Of a stretch of DNA of 32,606 nt, positions 3,988 through 28,820 are shown piece by piece. How positions within the stretch are numbered: the first letter of the stretch is position 1; every line of letters begins with the position of its first letter. Below the pieces are notes generated by a model. The model saw nothing but the letters and a program-made list of their open reading frames with translations. It was not told the origin of the DNA and did not search any database. Origin of the DNA: Acidobacteriota bacterium (GTDB lineage: Bacteria; Acidobacteriota; Thermoanaerobaculia; Gp7-AA8; JAHWKK01); NCBI GenBank assembly GCA_019347945.1, contig JAHWKK010000032.1, positions 1-32,606 of the forward strand, written 5' to 3'. Both the position numbers and the translations under genes were made by a program.

Positions 3988-5523
3988 ATGCTCGCCAAGG
4001 TTACGAGTGCTGCTACATTCGGTATTGACGCAGTAAAGATTACGGTCGAGGTCGACGCAGGCCGGGAGAAGGAGCTGCCCAGCTTTGCGCTCGTCGGCCT
4101 CCCCGACGCCGCGGTGAGGGAATCCTACTCCCGAGTCCGCTCCGCCCTCTACAACAGCGGTTTTGAGTTTCCGAGCCGCAATCTGACGATCAACCTCTCG
4201 CCGGCCGACGTCCGGAAGGAGGGATCCGGATTCGACCTGCCGATCGCCGTCGGGATTCTCGTGGCGGCGGGAAATCTCGACCAGTCGGTTCTGCGAGGCC
4301 GCGTCTTCGTCGGTGAGCTCTCTCTCGATGGCGCGATCGCACCGATTCGCGGGGCGCTCTCGATCTCGAACGCCGTCAGCCGTGAGCGCTCGATCGAGGA
4401 AGTCGTCGTTCCCGCCTCCAATGCGAACGAGGCGGCTTCGGTCGCAGGAGTGCGCGTGATCGGCGTTCCGCATCTTCCGGCGCTGGTCGATCACCTGCGC
4501 GGAGAATCGGCGATCGATCCGCACGTGACGCAGGCTTCCGATGAAGAGACCGAAGATGCCGCGGATTTCGCGGAGGTGAGGGGGCAGGCTTCGGGAAAAC
4601 GGGCCCTCGAGGTCGCGGCTGCAGGGGGCCACAACATCATGATGATCGGTCCGCCGGGATCGGGGAAGACGATGCTTGCGCGCAGGCTCCCGTCGATTCT
4701 TCCAGACCTGTCGTCGGCCGAGGCGATCGACACGACGAGGATTCACTCGGTGGCCGGCTTGCTCGATCCGGGAGCAGGCCTGGTGAGACGGCGACCCTTC
4801 CGCGCGCCCCACCACACGATCTCATACGCTGGTCTCGTTGGCGGCGGGACGAGTCCGAGACCGGGCGAGGTCAGTCTCGCGCACAACGGAATTCTCTTTC
4901 TCGACGAGCTTCCGGAGTTTCGGCGCGACGTTCTCGAGGTGATGCGCCAGCCGATGGAGGACGGCCATGTGACGATCTCGCGCGCGTTGAGGACGCTGAC
5001 GTTTCCGTCGCGCTTCACCCTCGCCGCTGCGCTCAATCCATGCCCGTGTGGTTACTTCAACGATCCGCGCAGGAGGTGCAGCTGCATGGAGATGCAGATC
5101 TCGAGATATCTCGCGCGCATCTCCGGGCCCCTTCTCGATCGGATCGACCTGCAGGTGGAGGTACCCGCGCTGAGCCCCGAAGAGATTTCGTCGACGGCGG
5201 CGGGAGAGCATTCCGTATCGATCCGGGAGCGCGTCGAAAAAGCCAGGGCGCGCCAGCGGGAGAGGTTTCGCCGTGCCCGGATCGATTCGAATGCGCAGAT
5301 GACCACGCGCCACCTCCGTGCCTTCTGCGATCTCGATCGCGCGTCCCAGCGGATGCTCGAGACGGCAGTGGAGCGACTCGGCCTTTCCGCACGTGCCTGG
5401 GATCGGGTACTCAAAGTAGCGCGAACGATCGCTGATCTCGATGCTTCCGACGCCATCCGGCCGGATCACGTCGGCGAAGCGATCCAGTACCGCGCGCTCG
5501 ACAAGGCCTACTTCCGATGCTGA
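3988..5523 (+). CDS. comM: ComM/YifB-family AAA+ ATPase (Mg-chelatase-like)
   Basis: Protein of 511 residues, the usual length. Residues 1-200 form the N-terminal ChlI-like domain (PSFALVGLPDAAVRES and NLSPADVRKEGSGFDLPIA). The AAA+ core has Walker A GPPGSGKT at 221-228 and Walker B FLDE ending at Asp306-Glu307. A cysteine cluster CPCGYF...RRCSC (Cys352, 354, 364, 366) may bind zinc. The C-terminal Mg-chelatase domain ends with IADLDASDAIRPDHVGEAIQYR. In naturally competent bacteria ComM is a hexameric helicase that promotes branch migration during transformation. It is also common in bacteria not known to be competent, so its presence alone does not show competence. The gene stands alone after the YceI terminator and converges with the DUF2905 gene. 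Confidence 0.95.
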   Translation: MLAKVTSAATFGIDAVKITVEVDAGREKELPSFALVGLPDAAVRESYSRVRSALYNSGFEFPSRNLTINLSPADVRKEGSGFDLPIAVGILVAAGNLDQSVLRGRVFVGELSLDGAIAPIRGALSISNAVSRERSIEEVVVPASNANEAASVAGVRVIGVPHLPALVDHLRGESAIDPHVTQASDEETEDAADFAEVRGQASGKRALEVAAAGGHNIMMIGPPGSGKTMLARRLPSILPDLSSAEAIDTTRIHSVAGLLDPGAGLVRRRPFRAPHHTISYAGLVGGGTSPRPGEVSLAHNGILFLDELPEFRRDVLEVMRQPMEDGHVTISRALRTLTFPSRFTLAAALNPCPCGYFNDPRRRCSCMEMQISRYLARISGPLLDRIDLQVEVPALSPEEISSTAAGEHSVSIRERVEKARARQRERFRRARIDSNAQMTTRHLRAFCDLDRASQRMLETAVERLGLSARAWDRVLKVARTIADLDASDAIRPDHVGEAIQYRALDKAYFRC

Positions 5524-5890: not shown

Positions 5891-8800
5891 GTGACAATGA
5901 CGACGACCCCGGACTCCTCCCGACCATCGCCGACCCCGTCGCTTTCCGATCTCGAAGAGATTCAGAAGCTCTACGACGCGGGGCAGTTTCTGAAAGCATG
6001 GAAAAGAGCGAGATCGTCAGGCGATCCTGCGCGATGGGAGCAGCCGGAAGCGCGCGTGCTCGCGGGACGTCTCATGAATCAGGTCGGTGCCGTCGGCGCC
6101 GGGAGCCGCCACCTCTACGGCACCTGGCGGCGTCATCCCGGTGACGCCGGGGCCCGCTACTACGGAGTCTTCAGCTACCGATCTTACCGCGGACCTCTTC
6201 TGGCGCGGCTCCTGATGATGGAGGTCGCTCCCGATGAGTTTCCGACCCCGAAGGACGAGTCCGACTGGCTGGGCCTCGAGGCCGGCGTCCTCGGAGATCT
6301 GCGCGATTTCGACCGTGCGGAGAAGTCGCTGGAAAGAGCACGTGAGATCTCCCCCGACAGCTCATGGCTGATGGTGGAGCGTACCGCGCTGTTCGAAAAA
6401 GAGGATCGTCTCGAGGAGGCGCTCTCCGCCAGCGAGACAGCGCTCGAACTGCGTCCCTGGTTCCATCCCGCGGTTCTGGCGCACGCGCATGTGCTCACGC
6501 TCGTGGACAGACAGATCGATGCGGTTATGTTCCTCGAGTCCGCACTCGAGCACATCGAGTCGGGGCAGGTGTGCGCATTTCTCGCGTCGCTCTACGCGGA
6601 ACGGAGAATGTTCGATGAAGCGCTCAATGCATGGGCGCTTTTCGAGCGCTATTCACCGATCATGGACGAGCAACTTCGCAAACGTCACGCGGCGAGCCTG
6701 TCGCATCTGCATTACCTCGCCGGCAACTACGGGGAGTCGAAGCGTTGGGCCGAGGCGGCGGACGACCCGATGCTCGACCGCATCGCCGAACGGCTCGGGG
6801 CCGAGGCCGGGGACCGCAGACGGAAGGAGATCGCGGTTCCATTCATCAGACAGCATCATGTGACCTGTGCCCCGACCACCGTGGCGATGATCGGCCGGCA
6901 CTGGAGCCGGGAGAACGATCATCTGGCGGTCGCCGAGGAGATTACATACAACGGCACGCCCACCCACCTCGAGCGGGACTGGGCGGATCGCAACGGATGG
7001 GTCACCCGCGAGTTCACGCTCGACTGGGAAGGAGCGGTCGAGCTCATCGACAGGGAGCTGCCGTTCACGCTGTCGACCTACTTCCCGGGAGGTGGACATG
7101 AACAGGCGGTCGTCGGATACGACGCATGGCGGCGAACTCTTCTCGTGCGGGATCCGGGGGCTCCGTCGCTCGCCGAGTACGACATGGAGAAACTTCTGGA
7201 GACCCAGCGATCGACCGGACCTCGATGCATGGTGATGGTGCCGGCCGAGTCAGCCGGCGAGCTGGAGGCGATCGAGCTTCGCGAATCGTGGGAGCGCGAC
7301 CGTCTGTTCGAAATGCAGAAGGCGCTCGACGAGCACGACCGCGTGCGCGCGGAGCGCGAGCTGAAGGAACTTCTGGCGCGATCTCCCGATGGTCTCCCCG
7401 CCTTCGAAGGCAAGCGGATGATGGCTGCTTACGATCGCAACCTGGTCGGACTCGGACGGATCTACGACAAACAAGTCGAGAAGATGCCGGACGACCGGCT
7501 GATCCTCCACATGAGTCTTCCGATCGTGGCGGAGCTGCATGGGCGGGGCGCGGAGAAGGCGATCCTCGAAAAGCTGGTCGCCGAAGAAGATCCGGCAGCC
7601 GAATCTTTTCTCGCCCTGTCGCAGATACTCAGCTCGGAGGCCGGGCAGGAGCAGCGGGCGGAGCGCCTCCTCGAGCGCCACCTGCGACTGATCCCCGGAG
7701 ATTCGAGATCAATATCGCTTCTGGCGTCACGCCGCTGGCAGGCCGGAGAGCGCCGTCTCGGCGCCGAGCTGTACCGGCTCGCCTGGACGGTTGCCGACAT
7801 GGACGAAGGGATGGCGGGGCAGTTCTTCATGGCCTCCGTTCTGACCGGCGAGCGGGAAGCGGCGCTGAAGATCCTCACCGAGCGGTTCGAGCGCGATGGC
7901 CGCAAGGCAGGCTGGCCGGCGATGACTCTGCACAACGCGTTGCTCGAATCGCACCGCACGGAGGATGCGTTCCGGGTCCTGGAGAAGGCAATCGAAATGC
8001 GGCCTGAGGACGGGGATCTGCTCCTCTTCGCCGCCGATGCAGAGGCGCGTCACGGTCGGTGGTCGCGAGCGGACGAGCTCGTCGAACGGGCTGTGGGACG
8101 TGCGCACGATCGTCATGTGCGTTCCGTCCGCGCGTCGATCGCACGGTACCGCGGCCGGCTCAGAGACTCGCTCATCGAGTGGAGCAAAGTCCTCGACCGG
8201 GAGCCCCTCGCCCCGGAGGTCTGGCAGTCCGTGGCGCAGCTGACGATGCAGGTGGAGGGACCCGAGGCGGCTGCCGGAATGCTCCGATCGATGATCGAAC
8301 GGTTTCCGTACCATCTTCCGCTTCGCCGTGCGCTGATCGAGTATCTGCGTGAAGGAGAGAGAGCCGAGCGCGAAGCGGAGATCCGTGCACTGCTGGAGAT
8401 CGAACCTGCCGACACATGGGCGCGGCGCGAGCTCGCGATCGTCTACGCGGAGGCGGGGCGCGAACAGGATGCGCTGGGCGAGCTCCAAGCGGCCGAGAGG
8501 ATCGAAGGACGCGATCCATCGACTTCGAGCCTGCGCGGCAGGATTCTCGAGCAGCTGGGCAAACCCGAGGAAGCACTGGCGGCATTCGAGGACGCAATCG
8601 CGGATGGCATCAGCGAGCCCTACGCCGTCTACTCCGTTCTCACAATGGGGGACAGCGACGAGAAGAGGCGCGAGAGAGCCACGACGATTCTCGAGCGGAT
8701 GATGCAATCAGAGGCGAGCCCCGACGCGATTGTCAGCTGGTACGAAGGAAGCCGGGAGCTGTTTCTCTGGGATGAGATGTCACAGTTCCTCAGAAAGCTC

Positions 8801-10891
8801 CACGAAGCGCATCCTCACCAGTGGATGGGAGGAACGCTTCTCGTGCGACACCTGGTGGCTTTCGAACGGGCCGAGGATGCAGTCGAGGTGGCCCGCGGCC
8901 TGGTGCAGCGCTTCCCGTTCGTTCCGATGGTGTGGCTGCGGGCAGCCGATGCGTACGGAGCCGCAGGAAACGAGGATGAACAGCGCCGGACTCTCCAGAC
9001 GGTCATGGAGCTCGATCCGACCGCCTCCGAGGCGGTCGTGAATCTGACCAACGTCATGCTCAACCGGCAGGAGGTGAGTCAGGCGAAGCAGCTTCTCGAA
9101 GAGGCATCGGCTCGCAGCCCGCTCGATCCTCTGATTCCCTACAATCTCGCGCGAGTCGCCTGGATGACGGGTAACTGGGAAGAGGCCTTCCGGTACTTCA
9201 CCCGCACGCTCGTGCTCGCGCCGCACATGGAAGACTCCTGGGCCGGAGCACGCGCCTCGGCTGAGCGAATGGGAGAGCCGGGCCGGGTCGCGGAGGTCGC
9301 TGAGGAGATCGCCAGCCAGCGTCCCGGCGACCCGCGGATTCCGATCGCGAGGGCGGAGTCGGAGATCGACCCGGAAAAGAAAATTGCCATTCTCGAGGGC
9401 GCCATCCGCCAGGATCCGTTCTTCCACGACGGCTACCACGCACTGGCCGAAACGCTGGTCCAGCTCGGCCGGTTCGACGAAGCGATCGAGCTGCTCGAGT
9501 CTTTCGGAAGCGGTCAGACAGTTCTGCCGGTCGGGATTCGCGGCAGGATCGCATGGGTCCGTGGTCAAAGCGGCGAGACGGAGCAGGCGATCGCCGAGAT
9601 GGGCGACCTCCTCGCCGAGAATCCGGATTACCGATGGGGAGTCGAGAAGCTTGCCGAGATGTACGTGAGTGTCGGCGACGCGGTGAACTATCGGAAGCAG
9701 GCAGCCCGTCTCACCCGGCTCGAACCGGAGAATGTCGTCTCCTGGAACAGGCTCGCCGATGCCGAGCTCTTTTCCGAGAACCTGGTGGGAGCGGAAAAGG
9801 CCCTGGAGCGCGCACTCCGCTGCGATCCCTATGACGGATGGAGCGCGTCGGTGCTATTCGACCTCGGCATCGATCGGAAGCGCTGGACAGTTGCGGAGAA
9901 GGCGCTTCAGGCCATCGAGCGCCAGCGCCAGCCGGGTGAAGCGGAGTGGCGCCGCGTCCGGCTCGCGACCTCGATGGGAGATCTCGACATCGCGCTTCGC
10001 GTCATCGAGACGCTCGCCGCCTATCCGGGGGATACGGGGCGGGGACTTCCGACCGCAATCTCGATCGCAGGGGAGCACGGCCTCGCCGGACCGGTCCGGG
10101 AAATCCTGAATGCGCAGGTTCGATCCGGCGAGGCGAGCCCGACGACGGCGGCCGAATGGGCTCGGCTGGAAGTTCGTGACGGCAAATGGAAAGAGGTCGA
10201 AAAGTACGTTGCGACGCTGACACCGGGATCCGAGCTATTCGTGGAAGTGATGCAGGCCTTTCTGGAGACGCTCGTCGAGATTCCGGGGGGACTTTCCCGG
10301 CTCGCAAAGATCCGGAAAAAGTACGACTCGTCGATCCGGTCTCATCCGAAGCTGTGGGGCACCATGCTGTGGAGCTTCTCGACGCTCGGGGAGTACCGGA
10401 AGACGCTCGAATTCGCCGGGGAGTGGGAACGTCGCGAGGGGCTCGAGCCCTGGATGCTTCTTAATGTCTCGCTCGCTCATCGCCATCTCGGCGACGACGA
10501 CAGAGGAGCAGCGGCGACTGGCTTTGCGATGGAGCTTGCTCCCGATCACTCGCGCTCGTGGCATGCCACATGGGCTGCCTGGGACGCTGCGAAAGATTTC
10601 GCCGCGGAGGCCGGCGCTCTGCTCGGTGACGCTGATCCCGCGGAGCTGGATGCGGCCCACATCGCGATCAGGAGCCTGACGATTGCAGTCCTCGAGGCCG
10701 GGGGTCGCGACGAAGGCTGGCGCGAGAGAGTCGACGCACATCTCGACATCGCCATGAAGTCCTACCGCACTATCCTTCCGAGGAACGATCTCGTGCGGCG
10801 TCTGTTTTTCGCGGCGTTGCGGCTCATCAGAAGGAGCGAGGGCACCGGCTGGCTCGTCTGGAAGCGGCGCTTCAGCCTGATCCTCCGCTGA
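5891..10891 (+). CDS. Giant TPR protein with embedded C39-like cysteine protease domain
   Basis: Protein of 1666 residues without signal peptide or membrane segments. Residues 1 to about 300 and about 470 to 1640 are helical repeats of TPR type (for example ALEREPxxxE-like and EEALAAFEDAI segments), with dozens of units. Between them, about 312-455, is a papain-fold domain resembling bacterial peptidase C39. Gln321, Cys326 (HHVTCAPTT), His403 (GGGHEQAVVGYD) and Asp421 (VRDPG) occupy the oxyanion and catalytic positions, so it looks active. The usual Cys-Gly after the nucleophile is Cys-Ala. C39 domains in ABC exporters cut double-glycine leaders, but no exporter or precursor gene is nearby, so the substrate is unknown. 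The start is GTG at 5891 or ATG at 5897. No ribosome binding site is visible, and TTATCG just upstream suggests a leaderless transcript. Confidence 0.85.
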   Translation: MTMTTTPDSSRPSPTPSLSDLEEIQKLYDAGQFLKAWKRARSSGDPARWEQPEARVLAGRLMNQVGAVGAGSRHLYGTWRRHPGDAGARYYGVFSYRSYRGPLLARLLMMEVAPDEFPTPKDESDWLGLEAGVLGDLRDFDRAEKSLERAREISPDSSWLMVERTALFEKEDRLEEALSASETALELRPWFHPAVLAHAHVLTLVDRQIDAVMFLESALEHIESGQVCAFLASLYAERRMFDEALNAWALFERYSPIMDEQLRKRHAASLSHLHYLAGNYGESKRWAEAADDPMLDRIAERLGAEAGDRRRKEIAVPFIRQHHVTCAPTTVAMIGRHWSRENDHLAVAEEITYNGTPTHLERDWADRNGWVTREFTLDWEGAVELIDRELPFTLSTYFPGGGHEQAVVGYDAWRRTLLVRDPGAPSLAEYDMEKLLETQRSTGPRCMVMVPAESAGELEAIELRESWERDRLFEMQKALDEHDRVRAERELKELLARSPDGLPAFEGKRMMAAYDRNLVGLGRIYDKQVEKMPDDRLILHMSLPIVAELHGRGAEKAILEKLVAEEDPAAESFLALSQILSSEAGQEQRAERLLERHLRLIPGDSRSISLLASRRWQAGERRLGAELYRLAWTVADMDEGMAGQFFMASVLTGEREAALKILTERFERDGRKAGWPAMTLHNALLESHRTEDAFRVLEKAIEMRPEDGDLLLFAADAEARHGRWSRADELVERAVGRAHDRHVRSVRASIARYRGRLRDSLIEWSKVLDREPLAPEVWQSVAQLTMQVEGPEAAAGMLRSMIERFPYHLPLRRALIEYLREGERAEREAEIRALLEIEPADTWARRELAIVYAEAGREQDALGELQAAERIEGRDPSTSSLRGRILEQLGKPEEALAAFEDAIADGISEPYAVYSVLTMGDSDEKRRERATTILERMMQSEASPDAIVSWYEGSRELFLWDEMSQFLRKLHEAHPHQWMGGTLLVRHLVAFERAEDAVEVARGLVQRFPFVPMVWLRAADAYGAAGNEDEQRRTLQTVMELDPTASEAVVNLTNVMLNRQEVSQAKQLLEEASARSPLDPLIPYNLARVAWMTGNWEEAFRYFTRTLVLAPHMEDSWAGARASAERMGEPGRVAEVAEEIASQRPGDPRIPIARAESEIDPEKKIAILEGAIRQDPFFHDGYHALAETLVQLGRFDEAIELLESFGSGQTVLPVGIRGRIAWVRGQSGETEQAIAEMGDLLAENPDYRWGVEKLAEMYVSVGDAVNYRKQAARLTRLEPENVVSWNRLADAELFSENLVGAEKALERALRCDPYDGWSASVLFDLGIDRKRWTVAEKALQAIERQRQPGEAEWRRVRLATSMGDLDIALRVIETLAAYPGDTGRGLPTAISIAGEHGLAGPVREILNAQVRSGEASPTTAAEWARLEVRDGKWKEVEKYVATLTPGSELFVEVMQAFLETLVEIPGGLSRLAKIRKKYDSSIRSHPKLWGTMLWSFSTLGEYRKTLEFAGEWERREGLEPWMLLNVSLAHRHLGDDDRGAAATGFAMELAPDHSRSWHATWAAWDAAKDFAAEAGALLGDADPAELDAAHIAIRSLTIAVLEAGGRDEGWRERVDAHLDIAMKSYRTILPRNDLVRRLFFAALRLIRRSEGTGWLVWKRRFSLILR

Positions 10892-10960: not shown

Positions 10961-13096
10961 ATGCCGAAGACTTTCCTTTTGAACCTGATCATGGCAGCGA
11001 CACCCCTGATGGCTCAGACCACTGAGGATCCTTATATATGGCTGGAGGATATCGATGGCGAGCGTGCGATGGCCTGGGTGCGCGAGCAGAATGCCAGGAC
11101 CGCGAAAGAGCTCGAATCGGAGGAAATCTATCCCCAGCTGTACCGCGATGCGCTTGCCGCTCTCAATTCCGAGAGCCGGATCCCCTCGGTGTCGATCCGC
11201 GGCGATTACGTCTACAACCTCTGGAAGGATGAAGCGCATCCTCGAGGGATCTATCGGCGCGCGACGCTCGCCAGTTTTCGCTCCGGAGACCCCGAATGGC
11301 AGACGATCTTCGACATCGATGCGATGTCGAAGGCCGATGGCGAGCAATGGGTATTCAGAGGGCTGAACTGTCTCGAACCGGAGTACCGAAAGTGCCTGCT
11401 GTCGCTTTCGCCCGGGGGAACCGACGCCGTCATGGTGCGTGAGTACGACCTCGAGGAGCTGGAGTTCGTCGAGGACGGGTTCAATCTTCCGGTCGCCAAA
11501 CACCGGATTTCATGGCGTGACGAAGACGCCGTCTACATCGGCACCGACTTCGGCACCGGCACGATGACGACCTCCGGTTATCCGCGCATCGCGAAGCTCT
11601 GGAAACGGGGGACTCCGTTGGCTCAGGCGGAGATGATCCGCGAAGGAGACATCGACTCGGTTGCGGTCGCCGCCTACAGGTTGCACGGCGACGAGGTCGC
11701 CGTCGATCTCGTCAACGAGAGTCCGACGTTCTGGACGAACGACTACATCTATCTCGGGGGGGACGAGCCTCGGCCCCTCGCCCTTCCCGACAGCGCCGAG
11801 ATCGAAGGGGCGTACAAGGGCGAACTGGTCATCTCGCTGAAGGAGGACTGGAATCGCGGAGGATCCAGGCTGGAGCAGGGATGGGTGCTGATCGGAAGTC
11901 CCGAGGTATTTATGGGTGATGGCGAGATCGAAGTTCTCGTCAGACCCGACGCGAGCGAGGTCGTGGAGTCGGTGAGAACGACGAAGGAGGGCATTCTCGT
12001 CACGATGCTCGACAACGTACGAGGACGCCTCTACCGCTACGAGCGGGGCGAGGATGGCTGGACCCGGAGGGAGATCTCGTTTCCGGACAACGGAGCGATC
12101 AACGTCGGCTCGGTCGACGACGCAACGGGCAACTTCTTCGTTCAGTACGAGTCGTTCACCACGCCGCCGACTCTCTATTTCGTTTCCGGTCCCTCCTGGA
12201 AACCGGTGAAGGTCGTGGCGCAGGAGCCGACATTCGGCGGCTCGCGCTACGAGGTGAGCCAGAACTGGGCGACGTCGAAAGACGGAACGAAGGTTCCCTA
12301 CTTCGTCGTGATGAGGAAAGGGACGAAGCTCGACGGAACGAATCCCACCCACATCTTCTCGTACGGCGGATTCCGTAACGCGCTGACGCCGTCGTACTCC
12401 GGGTCGTACGAGGCGCACTTCGGGGCGTACGGGAAGGGCTGGCTCGATCGAGGCGGGGTGTTCGTTCTTGCGAACATTCGCGGCGGGGGAGAGTTCGGAC
12501 CCGCGTGGCATGCGGCCGCTCTTCGTGAGAACCGGCCTCGTTCATTCGAAGACTTCGAGGCGATTGCCGAGGATCTGATCGAGCGGAAAATCACATCGCC
12601 GGAGCATCTCGGGATCGAGGGGCGAAGCAATGGAGGGTTGCTCGTCACCGCCACCATGACGCGCAGACCCGATCTTTACGGCGCCACGATCGTCGGATCA
12701 CCGCTGGTCGACATGAAGCGCTATCACGAGCTTCTGGCCGGGGCGAGCTGGATGGCCGAGTACGGCGATCCCGATGTTCCTGCGGATTGGGAGTACATGC
12801 GGATGTGGTCGCCGTACCAGAATTTCCGCGATGGCGTCGACTATCCGCCGACATTCGTTTACGCGTCGACGCGCGACGACCGGGTTCACCCGGGACACGC
12901 GAGAAAGACGGTCGCGAAGCTTCTCGAGCTCGGCGAAGAGGTCTATTACTGGGAGAACATCGAGGGAGGCCACGGCGCGAGCAGCACCAACGAACAGACT
13001 GCGCACCGGATCGCGCTGTCGTACACGCATCTCTGGCGCGAGCTCGGAGGCTCGGGGGAAGAGCCAGCGGCGCGCCGGATCGACCGTAAAGAGTAG
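10961..13096 (+). CDS. Secreted prolyl oligopeptidase (family S9A)
   Basis: Protein of 711 residues. A short hydrophobic N-terminus ending in MAQ suggests export (signal peptide of about 19 residues). Then come the family start DPYIWLEDIDGERAMAWV, a beta-propeller region (about 70-400) and an alpha/beta-hydrolase domain. Ser556 in GRSNGG, Asp639 or Asp640 in RDDRVHPGH and His671 in EGGHG form the catalytic triad, close to the positions in pig prolyl oligopeptidase (554, 641, 680). The oxyanion segment NIRGGGEFGPAWH is also present. It should cleave short peptides after proline or a related residue, probably in the periplasm. A ribosome binding site AGGAG sits 5 bases before the ATG. It follows the giant TPR gene by 69 bases and may be co-transcribed. 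Confidence 0.93.
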   Translation: MPKTFLLNLIMAATPLMAQTTEDPYIWLEDIDGERAMAWVREQNARTAKELESEEIYPQLYRDALAALNSESRIPSVSIRGDYVYNLWKDEAHPRGIYRRATLASFRSGDPEWQTIFDIDAMSKADGEQWVFRGLNCLEPEYRKCLLSLSPGGTDAVMVREYDLEELEFVEDGFNLPVAKHRISWRDEDAVYIGTDFGTGTMTTSGYPRIAKLWKRGTPLAQAEMIREGDIDSVAVAAYRLHGDEVAVDLVNESPTFWTNDYIYLGGDEPRPLALPDSAEIEGAYKGELVISLKEDWNRGGSRLEQGWVLIGSPEVFMGDGEIEVLVRPDASEVVESVRTTKEGILVTMLDNVRGRLYRYERGEDGWTRREISFPDNGAINVGSVDDATGNFFVQYESFTTPPTLYFVSGPSWKPVKVVAQEPTFGGSRYEVSQNWATSKDGTKVPYFVVMRKGTKLDGTNPTHIFSYGGFRNALTPSYSGSYEAHFGAYGKGWLDRGGVFVLANIRGGGEFGPAWHAAALRENRPRSFEDFEAIAEDLIERKITSPEHLGIEGRSNGGLLVTATMTRRPDLYGATIVGSPLVDMKRYHELLAGASWMAEYGDPDVPADWEYMRMWSPYQNFRDGVDYPPTFVYASTRDDRVHPGHARKTVAKLLELGEEVYYWENIEGGHGASSTNEQTAHRIALSYTHLWRELGGSGEEPAARRIDRKE

Positions 13097-13145
13097 CCGG
13101 TTGCCGGTTGCCGGTTGCCGGTTGCCGGTTGCCGGTTACCGATTG
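13097..13145. repeat. 7-bp tandem repeat CCGGTTG (7 units)
   Basis: Five perfect and two near-perfect copies of CCGGTTG begin at the first base after the stop codon of the prolyl oligopeptidase gene. The period of 7 is shared with other intergenic arrays in the window, although the unit differs. Confidence 0.9.
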
Positions 13146-13153
13146 CCAGGCTG

Positions 13154-13209
13154 CATCCTCACATCCTCACATCCTCACATCCTCACATCCTCACATCCTC
13201 ACATCCTCA
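13154..13209. repeat. 8-bp tandem repeat CATCCTCA (7 units)
   Basis: Seven perfect tandem copies of CATCCTCA, followed by decayed copies up to 13227, end 3 bases before the start codon of the deoxyhypusine-synthase-like gene. The array occupies the place where a promoter and ribosome binding site would be expected. A similar octad motif (CTCACATC) reappears at 14473-14520. Confidence 0.9.
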
Positions 13210-13229
13210 CATCCTTATATCCTTACCTA

Positions 13230-14198
13230 ATGACCAGACCGATCACCGACTTCATCGATCATCACTACCGCCACTTCAATGCGGCCGCGCTCAAGGCGGC
13301 GTCGAAGGGCTACAACGACCATCTCGACCGGGGAGGAAAGATGATGGTCACACTGGCGGGTGCGATGAGCACCGCAGAGATCGGTCTGAGCCTCGCGGAG
13401 ATGATCCGTCGTGAGAAGGTTCATTTCATTACGTGCACGGGGGCGAACCTCGAGGAAGACGTCTTCAATCTGGTGGCGCACGATCACTACGAGCACGTTC
13501 CGAATTATCGCGAGCTGACTCCCGCGGACGAAGCACGACTGCTGGAGCGGCACCTCAACCGCGTCACCGATACCTGCATCCCGGAGCACGAGGCGATGCG
13601 GCGAATCGAAAAGGCGGTTCTCGACCGGTGGATGGACGCCGATGCGAAGGGGGAGCAGTACTTTCCTCACGAGTTCATGTATCAGATCCTCCTCGATGGA
13701 AAGCTCGAGACGCAGATCGATCCGAAAAACTCCTGGCTGGTCGCCGCCGCCGAGAAGAATCTCCCGATGTTCGTTCCCGGCTGGGAGGACTCGACGCTCG
13801 GCAACATGTACGCGGGCCACTGCATCGACGGGGACGTGAAGAACGTCCATACCGTCCGAACCGGGATCGAGTACATGATCGAGCTGGCCGAGATCTATAC
13901 CGAAACCTCGAAAAAGTCATCGATCGGGTTCTTCCAGATCGGCGGAGGGATCGCGGGAGACTTTCCGATCTGTGTCGTTCCGATGCTTCACCAGGACCTG
14001 CGCCGCGACGATGTTCCGCTGTGGGGATATTTCTGTCAGATCAGCGACTCCACGACCAGCTACGGCTCCTACTCCGGCGCGGTTCCGAACGAGAAGATCA
14101 CCTGGGGAAAGCTCGGGGTCGACACCCCGAAGTTCATCATCGAGTCCGACGCTTCGATCGTCGTGCCGCTGATGTTCGCCTACATTCTCGGAATGTAG
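13230..14198 (+). CDS. Deoxyhypusine synthase-like protein
   Basis: Protein of 322 residues in the deoxyhypusine synthase superfamily. It has the NAD-binding style segments HFITCTGANLEEDVFN and GFFQIGGGIAGDFPIC, and the active-site region EKITWGKLGVD, in which Lys294 matches the catalytic lysine of the eukaryotic enzyme. Eukaryotic and archaeal enzymes transfer the aminobutyl group of spermidine to eIF5A. Bacteria lack eIF5A, so bacterial members may act on another acceptor, such as a polyamine as in homospermidine synthase. Which applies here is not decidable. The ATG at 13230 begins the conserved protein. The longer frame upstream runs through repeats and overlaps the peptidase gene. No ribosome binding site is visible. 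Confidence 0.88.
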   Translation: MTRPITDFIDHHYRHFNAAALKAASKGYNDHLDRGGKMMVTLAGAMSTAEIGLSLAEMIRREKVHFITCTGANLEEDVFNLVAHDHYEHVPNYRELTPADEARLLERHLNRVTDTCIPEHEAMRRIEKAVLDRWMDADAKGEQYFPHEFMYQILLDGKLETQIDPKNSWLVAAAEKNLPMFVPGWEDSTLGNMYAGHCIDGDVKNVHTVRTGIEYMIELAEIYTETSKKSSIGFFQIGGGIAGDFPICVVPMLHQDLRRDDVPLWGYFCQISDSTTSYGSYSGAVPNEKITWGKLGVDTPKFIIESDASIVVPLMFAYILGM

Positions 14199-14651: not shown

Positions 14652-17600
14652 ATGAAACGATCGTTGCTCGCCCTCACGCTCGCTCTCGCCGCCCTCTTCG
14701 CGTACGCTCAGGATCCGCCCGATCAGGGACACGAAGGCGATCCGGCGCCCCTGCCGGAGGAGGTTGCCGAAAAGCAGGAGGGGGAAGAGCCGAAGAAGTG
14801 GGACGCATCGAATCCTCCCGGGCCGCACCACACCGCGACGATCGATGTCACGGAGGGGACCTGGCTGAGCCTCGATGTCAGCCCCGATGGTCGCGAGATC
14901 GTTTTCGACCTCCTCGGTGACCTCTACACGATTCCGATCGGTGGAGGGGAAGCCGCAAATCTCACGTCGGGGGTCGAGTGGGACATGCAGCCGCGATACA
15001 GCCCCGACGGACGATGGATCGCGTTCACGAGCGACCGCTCTGGTGGCGACAATATCTGGATCATGAAACGCGACGGATCCGATCCGCAGCAGGTCAGCAG
15101 CGAGACCTTCCGCCTGCTCAACAGCCCCGCGTGGTCTCCCGACGGAGAGTTCATCGCCGCTCGCAAGCACTTCACCTCCCGCCGCTCTCTCGGGGCCGGA
15201 GAGATCTGGCTGTACCACCGCTCGGGAAGCGACGGGCTGCAGATGACCGAAAAGCCGAACGAGCAGAAGGACCTAGGAGAACCGGCATTCAGCCCTGACG
15301 GACGGTACGTCTACTACAGTCAGGACACGACACCGGGCCCGGTCTTCGAGTACAACAAGAATCCCCACGAAGGGATCTACTCGATCAAACGGCTCGACCG
15401 GCAGACGGGTGAGACCATCACGATCCTGTCGGGCGCGGGCGGAGCCGTCCGTCCCACACCGTCGCCCGACGGCCGGTCGCTCGCATTCATCCGTCGGCTC
15501 GGAATGATGACGACCCTTCAGGTGCTCGATCTCGAGTCGGGACAGCCATCCATCCTTTACGACGGTCTCGATCGGGACATGCAGGAAACCTGGGCGATTC
15601 ATGGCCTCTATCCGACAATGGCGTGGACTCCCGACAATCGATCGATCGTCTTCTGGTCGGATGGAAAGATCAACCGGATCGATGCCGCATCGAAGGAGGT
15701 CGCCGACATACCGTTCCATGTCCGGGACGAGCGGATGATGACCGGAGTCGTTCGCTTTCCGATCGAGGTCGCCCCGGAGCAGTTCCCCGTCCGGATGCTC
15801 CGGTGGGTGACTGTATCGCCCGACGAGAAGCGAGTGGTCTATGGGGCGCTCGGACGTCTCTGGATTCGCGATCTTCCGAACGGAACTCCGAGGCTTCTCA
15901 CGCGCGACTTCGGCACCTTCGAGGCCTATCCTTCTTTTTCGCGCGACAGCCGGTCGGTGGTCTACGTCTCGTGGGACGACCAGGACCTCGGGGCCATTCG
16001 CGTCGTCCCTGCCAGCGGAGGGGCGAGCCGCGCCGTGACATCTGCTCCCGGTCACTATCTCGAGCCGGTCTTCAGTCCCGACGCATCGACGATCGTCTTC
16101 CGCCGCGGATCGGGCGGACACCTCGTCTCGCCGGCCTACTCCTGGGACACCGGCCTCTACCGAGTCTCCGTCCGTGGCGGAGAACCCGTTCAGATCACCG
16201 ACCATGGGTACGCCCCTCAATTCGGATTCTCCGGCGACACTCTCTACTTCATGGCTTCGGAAGGGGAGGGGAAGCGGGGACTGCGGAGGATCGATCTCGA
16301 CGGAAGTGACGAGAGGACTCTCTACATCAGTGAAGAGGCCACCGAGATGGCCATCTCCCCCGACGGACGATGGCTGGCGTTCACCGAGCAGTTCAACGCG
16401 TGGATCACGCCGTTCGTCTTCACCGGAAAGACGGTCTCGATCGGTCCTCGGAGCGAGACCGTTCCGATGACGAAAGTGTCGAGAGACGCTGGTGAGTATC
16501 TGCACTGGTCCGGCGATTCGCGGACGCTCTACTGGGCGCTCGGCCCGGAGCTTTTCTCGAGAGGGCTGCGGGAATCGTTCGCGTTTTTCGACGGCGCCCC
16601 GGAAGAGCTCCCACCGCTGGCTGAGAGCGGCACTCCGATCGGTTTCATGTTTCCCTACGACGAGCCGGCCGGCATGGTCGCTCTGCGCGGCGCGAAGATC
16701 ATCACGATGAACGGTGACGAAGTCATCGCCGACGGAACCGTGCTGGTCGAAGGCAACCGGATTCGAGCGATCGGCCCGACCGCGTCGGTGACGGTTCCTT
16801 CGAGCGCGCGGGTCGTCGATGTCTCCGGCAAGACGATCATGCCGGGGATGATCGATGTTCACTGGCACGGCTCGATGGGGAGCGACGAGATCATTCCGGA
16901 GCAGAACTGGTATCTCTTTTCGTCCCTCGCCTACGGTGTCACATCGATTCATGACCCGTCGAACGACACGAGCGAGATCTTCGCGGCGAGCGAGCTGCAG
17001 AAGGCAGGAGCGCTCCGCGGTCCTCGTATCTTCTCGACCGGGACGATTCTTTATGGAGCTAAAGCGCCGTTCAGGGCGATCATCGAATCGCTCGACGATG
17101 CGCGGTCGCACCTCCGCCGGCTCAAGGCGGTCGGGGCATTCAGCGTGAAGAGTTACAACCAGCCGCGACGCGATCAACGACAGCAGGTGATCGAAGCTGC
17201 CCGCGAGCTCGAGATGATGGTCGTCCCCGAAGGTGGCTCCCTCTTCCAGCACAACATGACAATGATCGTCGATGGACATACGGGTATCGAGCACTCGATT
17301 CCCGTGGCGAACATTTACGATGACGTGCGTCAGTTGTGGCGCCAGTCGGAAACTGCATACACGCCGACGCTGGTCGTCGGCTTCGGAGGACTGTTCGGCG
17401 AAGAGTACTGGTACTCGAGAACCAACGTTTACGAGGACGAACGTTTGCTCCGCTATACGCCGCGTGAGTACGTCGAAGCGAGAGCACGCCGCACGATCCA
17501 GGCGGCAGACGAGGACTTCAATCACTTCAACAATGCGCGGATCGCGGCGGAGCTCGTCGACGAAGGGGTGGAAGTGCAGCTCGGCGCGCATGGGCAGAGA

Positions 17601-17906
17601 GAAGGTCTCGGTGCCCACTGGGAGCTGTGGATGTTTCATCAGGGAGGAATGACGAATCATGAGGCCCTCCGGTCGGCGACGCTCTCGGGAGCGAAGTACG
17701 TTGGTCTCGACGGCGACATCGGCTCGCTCGAGCCAGGCAAGCTCGCGGATCTCATCGTGCTCGACGCCGACCCGCTCGAGGACATCCGAAACTCGACCAG
17801 TGTCCGCTACACGATGGTCAACGGGCGCCTCTACGACGCGATGGAGATCAGGGAGATCGGAACCGGAGACTTCGTCCCCGAGCGGTTCTGGTTCAACAGA
17901 GAGTAG
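14652..17906 (+). CDS. Secreted TolB-like beta-propeller/amidohydrolase fusion
   Basis: Protein of 1084 residues. A signal peptide of about 20 residues (hydrophobic LLALTLALAALFAYA) is followed by a Glu/Pro-rich linker. Next is a long region of PD40/WD40-like propeller blades (about 60-650), with repeated SPDGR motifs. The C-terminal part, about 675-1080, is a metal-dependent amidohydrolase barrel with the HxH metal motif His737-Trp-His739, Lys833 in VKSYNQP and the typical end GSLEPGKLADLIVLDADPLE. The domain resembles imidazolonepropionase-like amidohydrolases. The substrate is unknown; a peptide or cyclic amide is a guess. The fusion of propeller and amidohydrolase is a known architecture. 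A strong GGGAGG site fixes the start. A heptad array begins right after the stop. Confidence 0.92.
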   Translation: MKRSLLALTLALAALFAYAQDPPDQGHEGDPAPLPEEVAEKQEGEEPKKWDASNPPGPHHTATIDVTEGTWLSLDVSPDGREIVFDLLGDLYTIPIGGGEAANLTSGVEWDMQPRYSPDGRWIAFTSDRSGGDNIWIMKRDGSDPQQVSSETFRLLNSPAWSPDGEFIAARKHFTSRRSLGAGEIWLYHRSGSDGLQMTEKPNEQKDLGEPAFSPDGRYVYYSQDTTPGPVFEYNKNPHEGIYSIKRLDRQTGETITILSGAGGAVRPTPSPDGRSLAFIRRLGMMTTLQVLDLESGQPSILYDGLDRDMQETWAIHGLYPTMAWTPDNRSIVFWSDGKINRIDAASKEVADIPFHVRDERMMTGVVRFPIEVAPEQFPVRMLRWVTVSPDEKRVVYGALGRLWIRDLPNGTPRLLTRDFGTFEAYPSFSRDSRSVVYVSWDDQDLGAIRVVPASGGASRAVTSAPGHYLEPVFSPDASTIVFRRGSGGHLVSPAYSWDTGLYRVSVRGGEPVQITDHGYAPQFGFSGDTLYFMASEGEGKRGLRRIDLDGSDERTLYISEEATEMAISPDGRWLAFTEQFNAWITPFVFTGKTVSIGPRSETVPMTKVSRDAGEYLHWSGDSRTLYWALGPELFSRGLRESFAFFDGAPEELPPLAESGTPIGFMFPYDEPAGMVALRGAKIITMNGDEVIADGTVLVEGNRIRAIGPTASVTVPSSARVVDVSGKTIMPGMIDVHWHGSMGSDEIIPEQNWYLFSSLAYGVTSIHDPSNDTSEIFAASELQKAGALRGPRIFSTGTILYGAKAPFRAIIESLDDARSHLRRLKAVGAFSVKSYNQPRRDQRQQVIEAARELEMMVVPEGGSLFQHNMTMIVDGHTGIEHSIPVANIYDDVRQLWRQSETAYTPTLVVGFGGLFGEEYWYSRTNVYEDERLLRYTPREYVEARARRTIQAADEDFNHFNNARIAAELVDEGVEVQLGAHGQREGLGAHWELWMFHQGGMTNHEALRSATLSGAKYVGLDGDIGSLEPGKLADLIVLDADPLEDIRNSTSVRYTMVNGRLYDAMEIREIGTGDFVPERFWFNRE

Positions 17907-24969: not shown

Positions 24970-25011
24970 TCCTGAATCCTGGCTCCTGGATCCTGAATCC
25001 TGAATCCTGCC
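24970..25011 (-). repeat. Heptad array TCCTGNN (6 units) at the argJ end
   Basis: Six tandem 7-mers (TCCTGAA, TCCTGGC, TCCTGGA, TCCTGCC) run up to the argJ stop codon and share one base with it. In the sense of argJ the unit is CAGG-led, as in the other gene-end arrays. Confidence 0.9.
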
Positions 25012-26192
25012 TAGCTTCGGTAGTCCGCGTTGAGCGAGACGTAGTCGTGCCCGAGGTCGGAGCTGAGCACGGTGGCGCGTCCTGGGCCGTTGCCGAGGGA
25101 GAGAGTGACCGGAACGCGCTCACGGGAGAAGATCCGCGCGGCGTCCTTTTCCCGGTACCCGTTCGGCTCGCCGTTCTCGATGAGCGTCAGCGGTCCGATC
25201 CGGAGCGAGACTTTCTTCGGTGAGAATTTTGCGCCGCTTCGTCCGACGGCCGCCAGAATCCGGCCCCAGTTCGGGTCGCCGCCGTGCAGCGCGGTCTTGA
25301 CCAGAGGAGACGTTGCAATGGCATGCGCGGCGAGCTTTGCATCCCGGTGCGTTCTCGCTCCCGAAACCTCGACCTCCATCACGCGGATCGCCCCTTCACC
25401 GTCGCGCACGATCATCCAGGCGAGCTCGCGACAGACGCTCTTCAGCGCACCGAGAAACGCCGCACTCTCTTCGCCCCCGGCCATCGGGTCCCCTTCGAGA
25501 CTTCCCGATGCGAGGAGGAAGACCGAGTCGTTCGTCGATGTGTCGCCGTCGACGGAGATCGCGTTGAAGCTTTCGGCTGCTGCCTCGACGAGAGCCTTCT
25601 TCAGGAAGGCCGGAGTCGCCGGCGCGTCGGTCATGATGAATGCGAGCATCGTCGCCATGTTCGGGTGGATCATCCCCGCCCCCTTGGCGACTCCGACGAT
25701 CCGGGCACGCGTACCGTTCCAGTTGAACGTCGCGCGGGCGACTTTCGGACCGACGTCGGTGGTCAGGATCGCATGCGAGGCGGCGTCGACTCCGGTGGCC
25801 GAGAGCCGGTTGAAAGCCTCCGGAAGAGCAGACCGGACCCGGGTGTCGTCGAGAGTGACGCCGATGACGCCGGTCGAGGCGAGAAGGACCTCGTTCGGAT
25901 CGCAGCCGAGCAGCTCGGCCGTCCGGCTCTGCACGCGCTTCGCCGCCTCGAATCCTTCGCGACCGGTGACTGCGTTCGCGCATCCGGCGTTGACGACGAC
26001 CGCGCGCGCCCGTCCCGAAGACGCTTTGAGCGAGCGCTTCGAGATGTCGACCGGTGCCGCGGTGAAGCGGTTGGTCGTGAAGATCGCCGCGGCATTCGCG
26101 CCGTTCTCGGCGACGATCAGAGCGAGGTCGGGGCGCTTCTTTCGAAGACCCGCACGAATCCCCGACGCGACGAAACCCTTCGGCAGTCTCAT
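25011..26192 (-). CDS. argJ: ArgJ: glutamate N-acetyltransferase / ornithine acetyltransferase
   Basis: Protein of 393 residues, the usual length. It transfers the acetyl group from N-acetylornithine to glutamate, which closes the cyclic arginine pathway; many members also use acetyl-CoA. The self-cleavage site is intact: KGAGMIHPNMA ends at residue 180 and Thr181 becomes the N-terminal nucleophile of the beta chain. STGVIG (106-111) contributes the oxyanion site. The start codon overlaps the argH stop by 4 bases (ATGA), and this is the last gene of the operon. A heptad array starts right at its stop codon. Confidence 0.97.
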   Translation of the reverse strand: MRLPKGFVASGIRAGLRKKRPDLALIVAENGANAAAIFTTNRFTAAPVDISKRSLKASSGRARAVVVNAGCANAVTGREGFEAAKRVQSRTAELLGCDPNEVLLASTGVIGVTLDDTRVRSALPEAFNRLSATGVDAASHAILTTDVGPKVARATFNWNGTRARIVGVAKGAGMIHPNMATMLAFIMTDAPATPAFLKKALVEAAAESFNAISVDGDTSTNDSVFLLASGSLEGDPMAGGEESAAFLGALKSVCRELAWMIVRDGEGAIRVMEVEVSGARTHRDAKLAAHAIATSPLVKTALHGGDPNWGRILAAVGRSGAKFSPKKVSLRIGPLTLIENGEPNGYREKDAARIFSRERVPVTLSLGNGPGRATVLSSDLGHDYVSLNADYRS

Positions 26193-27580
26193 CGCCCGCT
26201 CTCCCGGTTCTGCTTCGCGCGTGCCTTCTCGATTCTCTTCAGAGCGGTCGCTGCGGCCTTTCGGACGCGTTTCGGCGAAGTTCCGCCGGTCGCGGCTTTT
26301 CGGGCGACCGCCCGCGTCGCGTCGAGCTCGCGAAGATCCTCTTTCGTGATCTTTCCATCGGGCCCGAGCTCTGCCAGCGTGACGCCCTTCCGGATGGCCT
26401 CGCCGATGCGACGGCTGACGATCTCGTGCGCTTCGCGAAACGGGACATCTCGCGATGCCATCGAGTCCATGACCGCCGTCGAAAGAAGAAGATCGCTCGA
26501 CGCTGCGGCTTTCATCCGCTCGCGATCGATGGTGAGCCCGATGACGAGTCTTCCGAGAGCGGGAAGCAGCGACTCGAGCAGCTCGAACGAGCGGAAGAGC
26601 GGTTCCTTGTCGAGCTGCAGATCCTTGTTGTAGGCGAGGGGAAGGCCGTGCATCAGCGTCAGGAATCCGCTCAGCTCACCGGCGGATCTCGCGGCGTGTG
26701 CGCGAACGAGCTCGAGAAGATCCGGATTCTTCTTCTGCGGCATCCGGGATGAACCGGTCGCGAGCGCGTCGGGGAACTCGACGTACGCCGTTTCGTCGGC
26801 CGAGAAGAAGATGAGGTCGGCAGCCATGCGCGAAAGGTGGCTCAGAAGCATGGAGCAGGCAAAGAGCGCGTCGGCTTCGAAGTCGCGGCTCGCGACGGAG
26901 TCGAGCGAGTTGCCGGTGGGCCGGCTGAATCCGAGCTCGCGGGCGAGCGATTCGCGGTCGATGTCGATCGGGGTACCGGCAACGGCGCCGCTGCCGAGCG
27001 GGCATTCGTCGCCGCGCTCGAGTGCCGATTCGAAGCGATCCACGTCTCGGAGGAGCATCTCGACGTACGCGAGGCACCAGTGCCCGAAGGTGACCGGCTC
27101 CGCCTGCTTGAGATGCGTGTATCCCGGCATGATCGAGTCGTGCTCTTCCTCTGCTTTGCGGGCGAGCGCCTCGGTGAGATCGAGGACCGGTTCGATCGCG
27201 TCGTTCACGGCCTCGCGGAGCCAGAGCCGGAGATCGGTTGCGACCTGATCGTTGCGCGAGCGGCCGGTATGAAGCTTCTTCGCGAGCGGCCCGACGATCT
27301 CCCCGAGGGCCGATTCGACGTACGAATGGACGTCCTCGTGGTCGTCGAGCGGGAGATTCTCCGTCCCCTTCTTCGCGATCGCTCGAAGCCCCTTCACGAT
27401 CTTCGCGGCTTCCGCTTCCGTCAGAACCCCGGCCTGCTCGAGAGCGTGCGCCCACGCGATCGATCCTTGGACGTCGGCGTCGAGGAGGCGGTAGTCGACC
27501 GGGAACGAATCGTTCAGACGCTTCATCAGCGGATCCGTCTCCGTTTCGAACCTCCCGCCCCACATCGACTTTCGTGACAT
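26189..27580 (-). CDS. argH: ArgH: argininosuccinate lyase
   Basis: Protein of 463 residues. It splits argininosuccinate into arginine and fumarate, the last step of arginine synthesis; active as a cytoplasmic tetramer. It belongs to the fumarase/aspartase superfamily: HTGRSRND at 104-111, YTHLKQAEP from 154, and the signature GSSRMPQKKN at 276-285 with the catalytic serine. The ATG at 27580 is 8 bases after the argG stop, begins with MSRKSMWGGRF as in the family, and has an AAGGG element upstream. The frame extends further upstream inside argG, which is not credible as coding. The C-terminus has a Lys/Arg-rich tail. Confidence 0.97.
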   Translation of the reverse strand: MSRKSMWGGRFETETDPLMKRLNDSFPVDYRLLDADVQGSIAWAHALEQAGVLTEAEAAKIVKGLRAIAKKGTENLPLDDHEDVHSYVESALGEIVGPLAKKLHTGRSRNDQVATDLRLWLREAVNDAIEPVLDLTEALARKAEEEHDSIMPGYTHLKQAEPVTFGHWCLAYVEMLLRDVDRFESALERGDECPLGSGAVAGTPIDIDRESLARELGFSRPTGNSLDSVASRDFEADALFACSMLLSHLSRMAADLIFFSADETAYVEFPDALATGSSRMPQKKNPDLLELVRAHAARSAGELSGFLTLMHGLPLAYNKDLQLDKEPLFRSFELLESLLPALGRLVIGLTIDRERMKAAASSDLLLSTAVMDSMASRDVPFREAHEIVSRRIGEAIRKGVTLAELGPDGKITKEDLRELDATRAVARKAATGGTSPKRVRKAAATALKRIEKARAKQNRESGR

Positions 27581-27588
27581 CGTATTCG

Positions 27589-28818
27589 TCAGCCCTTCGC
27601 GGCGATTGTATCGACCGCGATCGGTGCGAGGCGATGCCGCCCCTTCGTCGGAAGGCCGAAGAGCCGGATGAATCCGGCGGCATCGGTCGCGTCGTAGCCC
27701 GTCATGTCGAACGAAGCGAGGTCGTGCGAATAGAGCGACTCGGCGGATTTCCGTCCGACGACCGCGCATCCGCCTTTGAAGAGCTTGAGCGTCACCGTTC
27801 CGGAGTTGTTCCGGGCGAGGCTGACCGAAAAAGCTTCGAGGGCTTCCCGTAGGGGCGAGTACCACTGGCCGTTGTAGACGAGCTCGGCGTATCGCGTGGC
27901 GATCCGCTCCTTTTCGTGCGCCGAGTCGCGGTCGAGAGTGAGGGTCTCCAGCGCCCGAAGCGCCTGGTAGAGGATCGTGCCGCCCGGCGTCTCGTAGACT
28001 CCGCGCGACTTGATCCCGACGAGACGGTTCTCGACGATGTCGATCCGGCCGATGCCGTGGTTGCCTCCGATCCGGTTGAGCTTTCGGACCAGTTCAGCGG
28101 GTGCGAGCGATTCGCCGTCGACCGCGACAGGAATCCCTCCTTCGAAAGTGATCGACACGCGCTGCGCTTCGTCGGGCGCGGCCTCGGGGCTCAGCGTCAT
28201 CCGGAACATCGATTCCTCCGGCTCGAAGTCGGGATCCTCGAGCGGGCCACCCTCGTGAGAGATGTGCCACAGATTGGCGTCGCGAGAATACGGATCCTTC
28301 TTCGTGACGGGGATCGGGATGTTGTGGGCAGTCGCGTAGTCGATCGCGTCCTCGCGGGAAACGATGTCCCACTCCCGCCACGGTGCGATCACCGGAAGCT
28401 GCGGAGCGAGAGCCTGATAGGCGAGCTCGAAGCGAACCTGATCGTTACCCTTACCGGTGCAGCCGTGAGCCAGACCGTCGCATCCGGTGGCCAGAGCGAT
28501 CTCGACCTGCTTCCGGGCAATCAACGGCCGCGCGGTCGAGGTACCGAGCAGATAATCGGCCTCGTAGATTGCGCCGGAGCGAAGGACGGGAAAGAGATAG
28601 TCGCGGGCGAACTCGTCGACCGCGTCGATCAGATAGAACTCCGACGCTCCGGTGGCGTAGGCCTTTTCCTCGAGCCGGGCGGTTTCCTCCACCTGACCGA
28701 CGTCGACGGCGACCGCAACCACCTCGCATCCGTAGTTTTCCTTCAGCCACGGGATGATGATCGAGGTATCGAGACCACCGGAGTAGGCGAGGGCGACTTT
28801 GTAGAGCTTGTTTTTCAC
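27589..28818 (-). CDS. argG: ArgG: argininosuccinate synthase
   Basis: Protein of 409 residues. It joins citrulline and aspartate with ATP to form argininosuccinate. The N-type ATP pyrophosphatase P-loop AYSGGLDTS is at 11-19, and further conserved segments include GCTGKGNDQVRFE and SRDANLWHIS. The start is GTG at 28818, with an AAGGAG site 8 bases upstream that lies inside the last codons of argD. Only two bases separate it from the argD stop, which suggests translational coupling. Confidence 0.97.
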   Translation of the reverse strand: MKNKLYKVALAYSGGLDTSIIIPWLKENYGCEVVAVAVDVGQVEETARLEEKAYATGASEFYLIDAVDEFARDYLFPVLRSGAIYEADYLLGTSTARPLIARKQVEIALATGCDGLAHGCTGKGNDQVRFELAYQALAPQLPVIAPWREWDIVSREDAIDYATAHNIPIPVTKKDPYSRDANLWHISHEGGPLEDPDFEPEESMFRMTLSPEAAPDEAQRVSITFEGGIPVAVDGESLAPAELVRKLNRIGGNHGIGRIDIVENRLVGIKSRGVYETPGGTILYQALRALETLTLDRDSAHEKERIATRYAELVYNGQWYSPLREALEAFSVSLARNNSGTVTLKLFKGGCAVVGRKSAESLYSHDLASFDMTGYDATDAAGFIRLFGLPTKGRHRLAPIAVDTIAAKG

Positions 28819-28820
28819 TG

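Follow-up and report, generated by a model that had tools for sequence, protein, structure and literature searches.

The window analyzed here, a stretch of 32,606 nucleotides from an Acidobacteriota genome, contains a gene whose product raises a specific question, i.e., what a C39-like cysteine peptidase domain does in the interior of a giant repeat protein. The open reading frame (5891-10891, plus strand; 1,666 open codons) follows the gene of YifB (3988-5523) and is followed, 69 bases away, by that of a prolyl-oligopeptidase-family protein. Its features are as follows:

5891..10891, plus strand: whole gene, encoding the 1,666-aa TPR/C39-like/TPR protein; GTG start, with an alternative in-frame ATG at 5897.
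5948..6790, plus strand: N-terminal TPR solenoid, about residues 20-300; Pfam TPR matches at 158-259; paired helices at 120-303 in the AlphaFold2 model, pLDDT mostly >94.
6818..7270, plus strand: C39-like papain-fold domain, about residues 310-460; PF13529, E 6.9e-10; AlphaFold2 pLDDT 94.3; Foldseek match ComA 3k8u.
6851..6853, plus strand: Gln321, oxyanion-hole position; 73/73 and 20/20 in two homologue sets.
6866..6868, plus strand: Cys326, catalytic nucleophile position, in the motif R-Q-H-x-x-T-C-A-P; 73/73 and 20/20.
7097..7099, plus strand: His403, catalytic histidine position; 73/73 in a pattern-biased set and 19/19 in an unbiased set.
7151..7153, plus strand: Asp421, third catalytic position, in the motif R-D-P; 72/73 (one Glu) and 18/19 (one Glu).
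7286..10888, plus strand: C-terminal TPR solenoid, about residues 466-1666; Pfam TPR matches at about 684-1205; paired helices at 466-634 in the model.

A preliminary description of this DNA had proposed a C39-like domain carrying Gln321, Cys326, His403, and Asp421, and all four residues were found at these positions. Pfam places Peptidase_C39_2 (PF13529) at residues 315-422 (E 6.9e-10; 40.1 bits, above the curated cut-off of 24), which makes the window protein a member of this family by profile, and no other Pfam family exceeds its cut-off for the domain. Thus, the C39-type assignment stands, but the Pfam family is C39_2 and not the exporter-fused C39 (PF03412). The window protein is the single PF13529 match in its genome. 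About 20 TPR-type Pfam models match on both sides of the domain, PF14559 reaching 120 bits over 5 stretches, so that with repeats above cut-off and paired helices in the model the protein qualifies as a TPR protein and the repeats do enclose the domain, as had been claimed. Both solenoids together represent 90% of the protein. The absence of a signal peptide was likewise borne out, since the N-terminus is not hydrophobic.

The C39 domain was modeled by AlphaFold2 with 70 family sequences (pLDDT 94.3, pTM 0.91). The best PDB match found by Foldseek was the ComA peptidase domain (3k8u; E 2.3e-7, TM-score 0.60 on the query and 0.81 on the target), and the other top folds were the PCAT1 peptidase domain, the C39-like 3erv, and staphopain. 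The structure prediction had been set beforehand as a possible refutation of the C39 proposal, and it yielded a predicted papain-like fold, which with the Cys, His, Asp, and oxyanion Gln corresponds to what defines Peptidase_C39_2. In a larger model comprising residues 110-640 (pLDDT 95.0, pTM 0.92), the solenoid helices abut the C39 domain directly on both sides; since the helical repeats enter and leave the domain without a break, the model predicts a rigid arrangement. The 50 best PDB matches of this composite model were without exception helical-repeat proteins, of the TPR or a related type, whose alignments covered just the solenoid (TM-score on the query ≤0.32), and none of them combined TPR and C39.

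Seven homologues within the phylum, the window protein included, align end to end. Their mean pairwise identity is 46-60% over residues 301-450 and mostly 20-44% elsewhere, the C39 region being the most conserved stretch of the protein in this set. Across close pairs, the dN/dS of the C39 domain ranges from 0.00 to 0.16, and it is lower than that of the whole protein in every pair with a usable estimate. Judged from these alignments, no other part of the protein is as conserved or as strongly constrained as the C39 domain. The end-to-end homology, the conservation peak, and the low dN/dS argue together that the architecture is not due to chance.

The preliminary description had also named the conservation of Cys326 and His403 as a check. 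Among 73 aligned members, Gln321 and Cys326 are invariant, and position 421 carries Asp in 72 members, with Glu in the remaining one. The conservation of His403 and Gln405 in the 80-locus set from which these members derive is biased, because the search pattern contained H-x-Q, and for this reason a separate, profile-based set of 20 planctomycete loci was examined (one ends at a contig edge, and at least three overlap the earlier set). Here, the Gln and the Cys were present in 20/20, the His in 19/19, and the Asp in 18/19, the remaining locus having Glu, while the residue two positions after the catalytic His varies. Therefore, both catalytic residues are kept in homologues, including those that were not chosen by motif.

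We propose, with a probability of roughly 0.6, that the window protein is a stand-alone, cytoplasmic, C39_2-type papain-like cysteine peptidase placed between TPR solenoids of about 300 (N-terminal) and 1,200 (C-terminal) residues, in which the solenoid chooses or controls the substrate. The solenoid would bind a protein ligand, either the substrate itself or a regulator giving the signal for cleavage, and would present a segment of this ligand to the Cys326-His403-Asp421 site, where the segment would be cleaved. The intact catalytic positions, the strongest constraint falling within the domain, and the closest folds being all peptidases support an active papain-fold enzyme, and the retention of the catalytic residues at about 24% identity is an argument against the fold being used in a purely non-proteolytic way. 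From these data we infer that the C39 domain cleaves peptide bonds and that the window protein is probably cytoplasmic. Substrate selection by the solenoid may be supposed by analogy; TPR arrays are common, and thus this role of the array is a guess of that kind. The solenoids account for most of the protein and their length is fixed, an argument for the importance of their geometry.

The C-terminus of most members is merely basic and Trp-rich. Two members have a hydrophobic C-terminal segment (L098, residues 1664-1682, and L113, residues 1679-1697; mean Kyte-Doolittle values of 2.3 and 2.7), whose composition suggests a tail anchor. Some members may consequently be membrane-bound, a point against the cytoplasmic reading.

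A papain fold with an intact Cys-His-Asp is also used by acyl- or transpeptidyl-transferases and by deamidases, and conserved catalytic positions are not in themselves tied to peptide cleavage. The protein could thus modify a partner protein or act as a transferase for acyl or peptidyl groups, and its TPR solenoid would bind the target, just as O-GlcNAc transferase (OGT) binds its targets via TPRs; we consider this unlikely. In its favor, the TPR domain of OGT ranks first among the solenoid matches of the 531-residue model, and the weaker Foldseek matches of the domain model include the phytochelatin synthase Alr0975 and papain folds of effectors or toxins, deamidase toxins among them. However, the closest folds by both E-value and TM-score are those of true peptidases, and Peptidase_C39_2 alone passes the Pfam cut-off for this domain.

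A scan of named genomes yielded 80 family loci, and full-length relatives that are 24-40% identical were found in Acidobacteriota, Planctomycetota, Verrucomicrobiota, Pseudomonadota (several Pseudomonas, Cupriavidus, Burkholderia, and Roseateles relatives), Myxococcota, Cyanobacteriota (Acaryochloris), and Gemmatimonadota. The last of these is represented by one MAG (L081, 9110-10708) whose frame closes after 532 aa, shortly past the C39 domain, due either to a truncated form or to a sequencing error. The 68 near-complete members have a median length of 1,665 aa and a median pairwise identity of 31%; the catalytic Cys is at residue 314-373, and 1,325-1,423 residues separate it from the end of the protein (5th-95th percentiles). 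Even for a divergent planctomycete branch that is 23-26% identical to the window protein, a single profile match spans the whole length. PF13529 also scores above cut-off in the homologues L026, L028, L031, L032, L042, and L114, and just under it (22.8) in the divergent L164. A cousin of 1,412 aa in genome G257 (L032, 3682-7920, minus strand) has the order TPR-C39_2-TPR, with Cys and His kept and 22% identity in the domain, which indicates that this architecture extends beyond the family of the window protein.

The presence of the gene is patchy, and its frequency is low in all groups counted. Counting in each case the genome from which the search started, it was detected in 7 of 396 genomes of its own phylum, 5 of 199 Pseudomonas, and 23 of 246 Planctomycetota. 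The 60 nearest relatives of the source genome contain no family gene; one of them (G048) gave a weak match that is not a full-length homologue. The six further carriers among the 396 phylum genomes comprise five with open frames of about 1,690 residues and a sixth split in two. In a Pyrinomonadaceae MAG, the gene (L036, 9194-14188, the same gene as L027) is found as two open reading frames of 888 and 766 aa with 27 bases between them, by frameshift, assembly error, or a real split. A Verrucomicrobiales MAG (JAIXZE01) carries two paralogues (L064 and L087). The labels of the family tree cluster by phylum with some mixing; the window protein joins L091 as two long branches, a grouping flagged as unreliable, and therefore we claim no donor lineage.

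The preliminary description had suggested looking for a partner gene common to the homologues. When the open reading frames within 10 kb of the 80 loci were clustered all-against-all, no shared partner emerged, and the conserved neighbors were only clade-local, the largest set comprising 6 closely related loci. Nor did Pfam reveal any family in more than three of the 109 nearest neighbors. The flanking genes have no fixed orientation either, with 38 on the same strand and 37 on the opposite strand downstream, and 42 and 28, respectively, upstream. In a planctomycete clade (L073, L080, L085, L093, and L111), a conserved LolA-like/MMPL/AMP-binding series begins at most 40 bases downstream and is absent in the other lineages. 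In the Pseudomonas carriers L042, L075, and L076, the gene is located between those encoding a nucleoid-associated protein (NdpA/NA37) and a TRAP-type receptor, and in 10 non-carrier Pseudomonas genomes (L130, L131, L133, L134, L136, L137, and L140-L143) the same two genes adjoin with no family gene between them; for most other Pseudomonas non-carriers, the upstream gene was not detected in the 1.5 kb examined. The lack of a common neighbor and an empty site that misses solely the family gene indicate that the functional unit is a single gene. The proteins of the two Pseudomonas lineages that share this site are 54% identical, which makes an old inheritance with repeated loss likelier than a recent insertion.

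The absence of an exporter, claimed from the start, was confirmed, since the PF03412 double-glycine exporter peptidase was not found by profile search in the whole genome (99.65% complete), the same search being positive in 8 of 14 control genomes; the neighbors are the YifB and prolyl oligopeptidase genes, and no precursor gene was seen. An exporter/precursor system was rejected on this basis. A phage or plasmid origin was also discarded, as no relative was found in the viral contigs or plasmids searched; the viral fold matches of the C39 model, i.e., lysins and other papain-like folds, reflect only the common fold. Known anti-phage systems were rejected as well, with no PADLOC-DB hit in four of five members and one weak match over 104 repeat residues in the fifth.

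Elsewhere in this bacterial window, a gene of the deoxyhypusine synthase family (PF01916, E 2.7e-41) lies at 12774-14198 (plus strand); its listed frame overlaps the upstream prolyl oligopeptidase gene, and therefore the true start is probably further downstream. Another gene (14652-17906, plus strand) encodes a 1,084-aa protein in which WD40-like PD40 propeller repeats are fused to an amidohydrolase domain. An arginine biosynthesis cluster occupies 25011-31793 (minus strand) and encodes ArgJ, argininosuccinate lyase, argininosuccinate synthase, a class-III aminotransferase, and a semialdehyde dehydrogenase.

The patchy presence of a stand-alone gene that is gained or lost by itself, and a giant product with a protease embedded in its repeats, would also fit a protease activated by a sensor, in which the solenoid acts as an off-switch until a signal such as phage or stress frees the peptidase, leading to cell arrest or death. 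We regard this as rather improbable, because the single PADLOC match is weak and lies within the repeats, the nearest neighbors are ordinary genes without a shared or repeated defense family, the gene is missing from the viral contigs and plasmids searched, and the site common to two Pseudomonas lineages points to old vertical descent with losses and not to island traffic. The models for such a mechanism are TPR-CHAT (Csx29, Craspase) and separase, which resemble the window protein in that a protease is joined to a long solenoid of helical repeats. Their protease is, however, caspase-like (clan CD), whereas that of the window protein is papain-like and has no CRISPR or partner gene; Pfam detected no caspase-like (CHAT or C50) domain in the window protein, which therefore does not belong to these groups.

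That the C39 domain only binds peptide inside the scaffold and cuts nothing, like the C39-like domain of haemolysin-type exporters (that of HlyB, a weaker fold match, is non-catalytic and lacks the catalytic cysteine), is very improbable given that the Cys is kept in all members examined, the His in all full-length ones, and the Asp in all except two with Glu, and that the strongest constraint of the whole protein falls on this domain.

Returning to the peptidase with a built-in solenoid, we have compared it with the known systems that it resembles. It shares sequence family, fold, and catalytic positions with Peptidase_C39_2 (PF13529; solved example 3erv), but members of this family have been described as single-domain, transporter-associated peptidases in a review of papain-like families (PMC10318531), whereas here the domain is set at fixed spacing within about 1,500 TPR residues. 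The C39 domains of ABC exporters (PF03412; ComA, PCAT1) provide the closest solved fold; the window protein differs in having no transporter fused or adjacent. The PA2778-family cysteine peptidases (NCBIfam NF033920), which occur in Pseudomonas, also consist of a C39-type peptidase followed by TPRs, but they are short (about 330 aa) and have a lipoprotein-type N-terminus, whereas the window protein, with 1,666 aa, has no lipobox-type N-terminus; it scores 79.1 bits against NF033920 (cut-off 150) with the top-scoring stretch in the repeats, and thus falls outside this family. We take L120 (327 aa, Pseudomonas) to be a PA2778-family example. In the LbcA-CtpA system of Pseudomonas aeruginosa, a TPR solenoid also controls a protease, and LbcA (7rqf) is among the top solenoid folds of the 531-residue model. 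These are two proteins, LbcA being a periplasmic lipoprotein scaffold and CtpA a serine protease, whereas the window protein is one polypeptide with a papain-fold domain. No description of a TPR/C39/TPR giant family was found in the open-access literature, the scope of our search. The domains are known and their fixed architecture is apparently undescribed, in line with the earlier view of the gene as a candidate for an undescribed system, and the family extends over at least seven phyla.

The number of repeats in a TPR array usually changes readily, by gain as well as by loss. A near-constant length and register across phyla, together with an intact triad, thus looks like a machine and not like a loose scaffold. 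A broader interpretation, which we put forward as doubtful, is that the family constitutes a new single-protein class of signal-gated bacterial protease, the papain-fold counterpart of separase and TPR-CHAT, in which a TPR superhelix of fixed length would sense a ligand and gate or feed a C39-type protease, encoded by a stand-alone accessory gene in at least seven phyla. If the protein is a protease that carries its own recognition solenoid, it would provide a papain-fold comparison for separase and Craspase, as well as a system encoded by one gene for direct tests of how a long TPR superhelix selects substrates, and since there are culturable Pseudomonas species among the carriers, a clean deletion combined with N-terminomics is feasible.
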